A model generated the notes under the pieces. It was not told the DNA's origin. It did not search any database and saw only the letters and a program-made list of their open reading frames with translations. The position numbers were made by a program, and so were the translations under genes. Below, piece after piece: positions 25,105 through 27,624 of a DNA stretch of 34,123 nt. The stretch spans positions 1 to 34,123 of the forward strand of contig JANXPQ010000174.1 of NCBI GenBank assembly GCA_025357235.1, written 5' to 3'. Source of the DNA: Betaproteobacteria bacterium (GTDB taxonomy: Bacteria > Pseudomonadota > Gammaproteobacteria > Burkholderiales > JACQAP01). Positions within the stretch are counted from its first letter, which is position 1, and the number at the start of each line of letters is the position of its first letter.

Positions 25105-26115
25105 ATGGAATATCGCAAGCTTGGCAACAGCGGGTTGAAGGTTTCGCCATTGTGCCTCGGCACCATGATGTTCGGAGATCGTACCGATGAAAAGGAAGCG
25201 GGCCGCATCGTCGGTTCCGCTTTCGACGCCGGCGTGAATTTCCTCGACACCGCCGACCAGTATGCGAAGGGCGAATCGGAGCGCATTACCGGCAAGCTGA
25301 TCGCATCCAACCGCGATCACTGGGTGCTCGCCACCAAAGTCGGCAATGTCATGGGCCCGGGCCCGAATCAGGTGGGACTCGGACGCAAATGGATCATGCA
25401 GGCGATCGACGCCAGCCTGAAACGCGTCGGCAGCGACTATGTCGACATTTACTATCTGCATCGCGATTTCGACGACGCGACTCTGGAAGAAACGGTCGCC
25501 GCCATGGGCGACATCATCCGTTCGGGCAAGGCGCGCTATTTTGGATTGTCCAACTTCCGCGGCTGGCGCATCGCCGAGATCGTCCGCCTTTGCGAACAGT
25601 TGAATGTTCCGCGTCCGATCGTCTGCCAGCCTTACTACAATGCGATGAACCGCCAGCCCGAAGTGGAAATCCTGCCGGCGTGCCGGCACTACGGCATCGG
25701 CGTCGTGCCTTACAGCCCGCTCGCGCGCGGCGTGCTGACCGGAAAATATAGACCGAAGGAGGCACCGCCGGAAGGCACGCGCGCCGGGCGCGCCGACAAG
25801 CGCATGATGGAAACCGAATTCCGCAAGGAGTCCCTGGCGATCGCGCAGAAGATCCGCGCCTTCGCCGAAAAGAAGGGTACGAGCGCCGGACACTTCGCGG
25901 TCAACTGGGTGCTCAACAACGCTATAGTCACCAGCGTCATCGCCGGACCGCGCACCCTCGAGCAGTGGCAGGATTATCTGAAGGCGCTGGAGTTCAAGTT
26001 CGAACCCAGGGGCGAAGCGCTGGTGGATTCCCTGGTGTCCGTCGGACATCCGTCGACGCCGGGATACAACGACCCGCAATATCCGCTGACCGGACGCGTG
26101 CCACTCGTCGGCTGA
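25105..26115 (+). CDS. aldo/keto reductase
   Basis: MEYRKLGNSGLKVSPLCLGTMMFGDRTDEKEAGRIVGSAFDAGVNFLDTADQYAKGESERITGKLI. Confidence 0.95.
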   Translation: MEYRKLGNSGLKVSPLCLGTMMFGDRTDEKEAGRIVGSAFDAGVNFLDTADQYAKGESERITGKLIASNRDHWVLATKVGNVMGPGPNQVGLGRKWIMQAIDASLKRVGSDYVDIYYLHRDFDDATLEETVAAMGDIIRSGKARYFGLSNFRGWRIAEIVRLCEQLNVPRPIVCQPYYNAMNRQPEVEILPACRHYGIGVVPYSPLARGVLTGKYRPKEAPPEGTRAGRADKRMMETEFRKESLAIAQKIRAFAEKKGTSAGHFAVNWVLNNAIVTSVIAGPRTLEQWQDYLKALEFKFEPRGEALVDSLVSVGHPSTPGYNDPQYPLTGRVPLVG

Positions 26116-26122
26116 GGCAAAC

Positions 26123-26881
26123 ATGGACAAGGCCCGTGTTGCAGTCGTTACCGGCGGTTCGCGCGGCATCGGACGCGCGATCGTGGAGATGTTGGCGTCG
26201 CGCGGATACCGTGTGCTGTTCACCTATGCTAATCGGCAAAGCGATGCGGCTGCCGTCGAATCCGCGGTGGCGGCGGCAGGCGGCGAAGCGAAAAAATTGC
26301 GCGCCGATGTGTCGGACGCGAAGTCCGCCAAGGCAGTCGTTCAGTCCGCGTTGGATGCATTCGGCCGCGTGGACGTGCTGGTCAACAACGCCGGCACGCA
26401 CTTGCCGGATGTCTCCGTTGCGGATACATCCCCGGAAGAATGGGACCGTGTTCTGCGCGTGAACCTGTACGGAACGTTCCACATGGTCCAGGCCGTGCTG
26501 CCGCACATGCAGGCCCGCAAAAGCGGCAACATCGTCAACCTGTCGTCCAACATCACCAGCCGGTTTGCCGCGCGGAACTGCGTCTATACCGTTTCGAAGG
26601 TCGGGGTCGAAGCGCTGACCCGCATCCTGTCGAAGGAAGAAGGCCGCAACGGCATCCGCGTGAACGCAGTCGCCCCCGGTCCGATCCGCACCGACATGCT
26701 CGAAGAAACGATGGTCAAGATCGGCCCGGAACGCGCCGACGCATTCATCAAGTCGGTGCCGCTCGGGCGCAAGGGCGAGCCGGGCGAAATCGCCGAAGCG
26801 GTGGCCTTCCTTGTTTCCGACGCCGCCAGCTACATGACCGGCCAGATCGTATTCGTCAACGGCGGCGGCCCGGGTAGTTAG
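26123..26881 (+). CDS. SDR family oxidoreductase (FabG-like)
   Basis: VAVVTGGSRGIGRAIVEMLASRGYRVLFTY...VLVNNAGTH...YTVSKVGVEALTRILSKE...FLVSDAASYMTGQIVFVNGG. Confidence 0.95.
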   Translation: MDKARVAVVTGGSRGIGRAIVEMLASRGYRVLFTYANRQSDAAAVESAVAAAGGEAKKLRADVSDAKSAKAVVQSALDAFGRVDVLVNNAGTHLPDVSVADTSPEEWDRVLRVNLYGTFHMVQAVLPHMQARKSGNIVNLSSNITSRFAARNCVYTVSKVGVEALTRILSKEEGRNGIRVNAVAPGPIRTDMLEETMVKIGPERADAFIKSVPLGRKGEPGEIAEAVAFLVSDAASYMTGQIVFVNGGGPGS

Positions 26882-26884
26882 TTG

Positions 26885-27107
26885 AGTGTCCTGTCGCGCT
26901 GATTCGTGGGACGACGCATGTGCCCTGATCGTCGACTCGTTATTTCCGCCATGACAGCCATCCAGCACCGATTGGAAAACCTGCGAAATCGGTGTCAGAC
27001 AAGGCGCGAGACCTCGACAGTGGCGGGCTCCACGGCGAGGGCTCGTAACGCCGTATGGCGCCGATTCTCGTCGGGTTTTCAGTCGCGAATCAGCGCGACA
27101 GGACACT
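26885..27107. mobile_element. MITE-like non-autonomous element, 223 bp, with perfect 22-bp terminal inverted repeats
   Basis: left AGTGTCCTGTCGCGCTGATTCG (26885-26906), right CGAATCAGCGCGACAGGACACT (27086-27107), exact reverse complements; no convincing internal CDS; no clear target-site duplication. Confidence 0.7.
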
Positions 27108-27111
27108 TTAA

Positions 27112-27624
27112 ATGCCGTTGATCCGGCCGGAACAGACCGGAGATTTCGATACGGTCGATGCGCTTCTTCTCGCCACTTTCGGGCGCGACGCGGAGGTGCG
27201 GCTGGTGCATCGGTTGCGTGCCTCGGAAAAAATCACTTCTGCCCTGGTCGCCGAGGAAAAGGCACGCATCCTCGGGCACGTGGTGTTTTCAAAAATTGTC
27301 GTGGACGGTGAAAGCGGCGAGGTGGGTGCGCTCGCACTCGCGCCGCTCGCAGTGGAGCCAGCGTTCCAGCGCCTCGGTATCGGCAGCGCACTTGTCAGTG
27401 CCGGTTTGGAGCGCTGCCGGCTGAATCGCCATCCGCGCGTGCTGGTGCTGGGCGATCCGGTTTACTACTCGCGCTTTGGATTCGTGCCGGCCGAGCGTTT
27501 CGGATTGAAATGTCTATTTCCCGCGCGCGACCACGCTTTCCTGGCGATCGAACTGGAGCCCGGCGCATTCGCCAGGGCCTCAGGCACGGTGCGCTACGGC
27601 CATGAGTTCGACGATCTCGAGTAA
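27112..27624 (+). CDS. GNAT family N-acetyltransferase
   Basis: MPLIRPEQTGDFDTVDALLLATFGRDAEVRLVHRLR...ALALAPLAVEPAFQRLGIGSALVSAGLERCR...VLVLGDPVYYSRFGFVPAERFGL. Confidence 0.93.
   Translation: MPLIRPEQTGDFDTVDALLLATFGRDAEVRLVHRLRASEKITSALVAEEKARILGHVVFSKIVVDGESGEVGALALAPLAVEPAFQRLGIGSALVSAGLERCRLNRHPRVLVLGDPVYYSRFGFVPAERFGLKCLFPARDHAFLAIELEPGAFARASGTVRYGHEFDDLE

Follow-up and report, generated by a model that had tools for sequence, protein, structure and literature searches.

A probable IS630-type miniature element between SDR and GNAT genes carries a conserved hairpin core apparently selected to fold on one strand

The window analyzed here is a stretch of 34,123 nucleotides from a Betaproteobacteria bacterium (contig JANXPQ010000174.1). 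The interval between an SDR-family oxidoreductase gene and a putative GNAT gene in this window was found to hold a 223-bp element, which we regard with good confidence as a non-autonomous MITE of the IS630 class with a conserved hairpin module that acts as a folded single strand. The structured core, AAGGCGC...hairpin...AACGC, forms the apex of short inverted-repeat elements belonging to at least 21 arm families, and the AAGGCGC...AACGC strand has apparently been selected to fold, as RNA or as single-stranded DNA.

The element at the SDR-GNAT junction

The initial annotation had described a 223-bp element with perfect 22-bp terminal inverted repeats (TIRs) that occupies nearly the whole interval between the two genes. 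Both points were confirmed, the right TIR being the exact reverse complement of the left (Table 1). By chance, two perfectly inverted 22-bp copies lying no more than a few hundred bases apart are expected approximately 1e-6 times in a 34-kb window, estimated as approximately 1.7e7 position pairs multiplied by 4^-22. The interior was found to lack a plausible gene, as had been noted before; an open reading frame on the minus strand (25994-27106) spans the element, but it is antisense to the SDR gene and looks spurious. The GNAT gene had no NCBIfam match.

Table 1. Features at the SDR-GNAT junction, in window positions (the core folds on the + strand of the element)
Feature	Position	Strand	Remark
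Probable IS630-type MITE, 223 bp	26885..27107	+	Length counts one terminal A/T of each flanking pair
Left TIR, AGTGTCCTGTCGCGCTGATTCG	26885..26906	+
Right TIR	27086..27107	-	Exact inverse of the left TIR
Conserved core hairpin	26975..27079	+	Match to covariance model R1
Inner core	26986..27066	+	Match to model R2, 55.8 bits
Short hairpin, ACCGATT (26967-26973) / AATCGGT (26987-26993)	26967..26993	+	Minor alternative pairing
SDR-family oxidoreductase, upstream gene	26123..26881	+	Stop codon 3 nt ahead of the element
Downstream gene, GNAT according to the initial annotation	27112..27624	+	Ortholog directly abuts SDR in congener G003
AGGA within the right TIR, Shine-Dalgarno-like from its sequence	27100..27103	+	In the TIR stem, 8 nt before the GNAT ATG

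The + strand of the element, when folded as RNA, forms one long branched hairpin of -118.7 kcal/mol, compared to a mean of -82.5 kcal/mol (SD 4.3) for shuffled sequences, an excess for which the inverted repeats alone account in part. The short ACCGATT/AATCGGT hairpin pointed out earlier is present, but it is of minor importance since the dominant fold pairs AAATCGG (26986-26992) with CCGATTCTCG (27061-27070).

Three further copies were found in the same assembly (582 contigs), on contigs C349, C146, and C114, and many more in relatives, including the congeners G001 and G003 and the more distant genomes G074 and G019. Several contigs of draft genomes (L281, L284, L285, L287, L024, and others) end inside or at these elements, and copy numbers from draft genomes are therefore underestimates. 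In G003 the SDR-GNAT pair is present (84% identity for SDR and 84% for GNAT), and nothing but CTC separates the SDR stop from the GNAT start; in G001 the two genes lie approximately 35 nt apart. Neither junction contains the element. In the lineage of the window, therefore, the element was inserted into the junction, and together with the dispersed copies this bears out the earlier proposal of a non-autonomous transposon.

The location exactly between two codirectional genes and the very stable fold would also suit a fixed, non-mobile regulatory hairpin or attenuator of an SDR-GNAT operon. However, the orthologous junction is empty in two congeners and copies are dispersed at unrelated loci, which refutes such a hairpin as the origin of the element and leaves this reading very improbable. 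A later regulatory effect of the insertion at this site is possible. It is plausible that the insertion would alter translation of GNAT, which it parts from SDR and whose candidate Shine-Dalgarno sequence it places in the stem of the TIR.

Ends, target site, and source of the transposase

The ends of the element (AGTGTCCTG...) are of the CTAG/TA-targeting IS630 class. Elements of the same class in genus g6 of the same order (genomes G008, G057, G101, and G140) end in AGTGTCCTGAGTC, and the joined flanks of these copies were queried against the genus in search of empty sites. An AGTGTCC-ended sister copy was found in the arrangement CATC-TA-[GTGTCC...GGACAC]-TA-GATGCG, while three relatives carry the same locus empty as GAC-TA-GATTCG, GAC-TA-TATGCG, and GGT-TA-GATGCG. 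At a second locus the empty site aligned with 240 of 240 joined bases without a gap. The sister copies in g6 have thus duplicated a TA target in a YTAR context, and TA duplication is the signature of IS630/Tc1-mariner elements (PMC2170065). The window copy no longer has a surrounding TA..TA pair, its flanks being GA and TT, so that a duplication of its own is not seen. Because of the TA duplication at the three sister-copy empty sites, and because annotated IS630 elements have AGTGTCCTGAGTT or AGTGTAGTGCTTC ends, the element was assigned to the IS630-type MITEs.

Dispersed palindromic hairpins that sometimes stand in head-to-head pairs are also seen with REP/REPIN elements moved by a Y1 (RAYT) transposase. 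Such repeats are 20-40 bp and GTAG- or CGTC-tagged (PMC3733652), whereas the elements studied here are 160-280 bp with long TIRs, a TA duplication, and ends that match IS630 elements. Membership in the REP/REPIN group was rejected on their length, TIRs, and TA duplication, and we give this origin hardly any credence.

It had been suggested earlier to look for a transposase flanked by the same TIR. Genome G001 has an IS630-family element (NF033545, 199.7 bits, frame broken) with the same ends, CTAGTGTAGTGCTTCGTA, as the MITEs of G001, but no AGTGTCCTG-ended counterpart was found in the assembly of the window. Plasmid-borne IS630 elements have CTAGTGTCCTGAGTT ends in Acidovorax carolinensis pACP3.1 and CTAGTGTAGTGCTTC ends in Caballeronia, and the match between the element and an autonomous IS630 comprises AGTGTCCTG plus a partial inner match (L336). 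No exact autonomous partner for the end variant of the window, AGTGTCCTGTCGCG, was found in its own genome, and AGTGTCCTG ends could not be fitted exactly to any IS630 transposase of this genome, G074, or genus g6. G003 contains MITEs and gave no DDE_3 match, and a BLASTN search of the window element against plasmids gave no match. In genome G376 all paired copies of the GGAACCTCTGCACGAATC end are parts of MITEs; no interval large enough for a gene lies between such a pair, and no partner insertion sequence was found there. Ends of the GGAACCTCTGCACGAATC kind may be those of IS5-type elements.

From its ends, the element is probably mobilized in trans. An IS630-family transposase supplied in this way would recognize the ends and cut the element out, and reinsertion would take place at the TA inside a YTAR/CTAG-like site with duplication of the TA. 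In the lineage of the window the element would have landed between SDR and GNAT, which were probably tightly coupled beforehand. For the symmetrical arms of the elements, hairpin capping is also a conceivable origin.

The mobile part is of an ordinary kind and is similar to RUP and NEMIS, with which it was compared by description only. RUP of Streptococcus pneumoniae, attributed to IS630-Spn1, is approximately 107 bp with IS630-like TIRs, TA insertion, and a stable fold (PMC2229807, PMC3049150), features that recall the present element; however, RUP occurs only in pneumococcus and its near relatives, and no core common to elements with other ends has been described for it. The Correia/NEMIS elements of Neisseria have a terminal TA, TIRs of approximately 24 bp, and a size of 107-155 bp, and their transcripts form long stem-loops proposed to be RNase III substrates (PMC2229807). 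They are similar in TIRs, TA, and size, but they differ in their hosts and no such common core has been described. Full IS630-family insertion sequences, e.g., ISPsy32 and IS870, share CTAGTG-type ends and the TA target but are approximately 1.15 kb and encode a transposase, and the core was absent from all three IS630 elements run against the core model.

A core hairpin common to elements with unrelated ends

A covariance model of the core (R1) was built from 16 sequences, one of them the window copy, which it matched with an E-value of 5e-27. Of 399 genomes sampled within the order, 83 contain R1 matches, often with at least 10 copies per genome. The second model (R2) was derived from 43 further elements taken from diverse genomes, the window copy not among them, and matched in 52 of 399 sampled genomes of the phylum (E <= 1e-5), including other classes. 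When named genomes were searched with a DNA pattern for the innermost core, at least 120 matching stretches were identified, most of them in Comamonadaceae and other Burkholderiales. The ends of these elements are of unrelated types, e.g., CTAGTGTCCTG, CTAGTGCAGTGTTCGATG, CTAGTACGCCGACCC, CTAGGGAGCCTCTGCACG, AGAGCCTGTTCAAAGTC, and AGAACTTGTCCGTAAATAG. The Rfam release 15 covariance models, run on 15 loci, gave no significant match to the element, and the core has no Rfam family; the only significant match was to the unrelated ZMP/ZTP riboswitch RF01750 (L099, 247-365), which shares its contig with a core element. A literature search with the core sequence as text returned nothing relevant.

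One layout has a single core hairpin in approximately 160-190 bp, and the window copy is of this one-hairpin type. Another comprises approximately 265-285 bp and has a second core hairpin that is inverted relative to the first; in L065, L264, L246, L248, and others, of 265-285 bp, a CCCGAAGGG-like linker is present and the second core lies on the opposite strand. The CIR elements of Caulobacter and Brucella likewise consist of two inverted-repeat arms and a linker between them, but they contain a GANTC methylation motif and no TIR has been reported for them (PMC2229807). Two of the four copies in the genome of the window (L003, 1501-1853, on C146; approximately 1963-2320 on C114) have an apex approximately 135 bp longer with an inverted repeat of its own, GGAGCAGGGGCCCC...GGTCACATCCC, and represent a third layout. 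Hairpins of approximately 115-145 bp with the variant core CAAGGCGAA...ATGAGCAT...CAACGC and no clear IS-like ends were seen in L254-L258 (genomes G549, G607, and G617). Core hairpins are also present on two IMG/VR viral contigs (L207, 4769-4847 and 7202-7280, 2.4 kb apart; L206, 5099-5176), and GGACCCTCTGCACGAATC-ended core elements lie on plasmids of Cupriavidus and Diaphorobacter near IS481 and IS66 transposase genes (L340 and L341).

Folding of one strand and its meaning

Among 43 diverse cores, 90.5% of cells were paired compared to 66.9% in shuffles, and covariation was 0.590 compared to 0.167 for shuffled cores, falling to approximately 0.1 when partners were shifted by 1-3 bases. Letters of the core had been used to find many of the elements, whereas the outer and apical stems had not, and these hold most of the covariation. 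In the arms of 56 elements, aligned with G.U and A.C scored alike, G.U mismatches numbered 224 and A.C mismatches 38. The excess of G.U was 51:4 when counted per element and 21:0 per arm family. In two-hairpin elements the ratio was 19:9 in the first hairpin and 10:26 in the inverted second, i.e., the bias flips. The excess in all families and its reversal in the inverted hairpin suggest that the AAGGCGC...AACGC strand is selected to fold.

A mutational asymmetry between the strands could also leave an excess of G.U, with a functionless core merely inherited through recombination. MITEs are able to exchange parts in this way, and members of one family do not count as independent observations. 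On the other hand, the bias is the same in all 21 arm families and reverses with the hairpin, and the stems covary heavily. Within families, G.U occurs both beside G-C (39) and beside A-U (31), so that simple deamination or a one-way mutation bias is unlikely. We consider the mutational explanation improbable.

With neighboring genes assigned by a simple longest-ORF gene call, the elements showed no bias of orientation (12 sense, 14 antisense). Selection through host operons is therefore not visible, and it may be the element itself that benefits. The selected molecule is most likely RNA, folded in transcripts that cross the element. Pairing could instead take place in protein-bound single-stranded DNA during replication, conjugation, or transposition. 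This would agree with the missing orientation bias, with a G.U bias that is still seen in the outermost 20 bp of each arm (60:14), and with one hairpin per strand in the larger elements. Against it, G.T pairs in DNA are less favored than G.U pairs in RNA, and cut-and-paste IS630 elements have no known single-strand step (PMC2170065). Overall we find single-stranded DNA a rather unlikely but not negligible answer.

We offer a wider suggestion tentatively, at somewhat less than even confidence. One structured RNA (or single-stranded DNA) module could have spread across Pseudomonadota as common cargo of miniature elements mobilized by several unrelated IS families and be advantageous to them, the two-hairpin type presenting one working hairpin on each strand. 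If so, the advantage might be, e.g., weaker polar effects on the genes between which an element lands, or help with its own mobility.

Bacterial MITEs are usually regarded as shortened insertion sequences with a disposable interior. In the elements described here, conservation is highest in the interior, which is common to elements with unrelated ends and has a strand-specific pairing bias. The core may also explain the unexplained beta-proteobacterial repeat element BRE and its small RNA in Bordetella. BRE was described from a Bordetella small RNA as a 75-91 bp repeat that is mainly intergenic, frequently forms tandem arrays, and occurs in Bordetella, Polaromonas, Delftia, and Acidovorax, among others, with one copy giving rise to transcripts of 80 nt and approximately 200 nt (Hot et al., 2011; PMC3110155). 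From this description its taxa and size fit the core, and the two may be the same, although BRE was described without TIRs, structure, transposase, or mechanism, and its tandem arrays set it apart. Whether small parasitic elements carry functional RNA becomes directly testable with this core.
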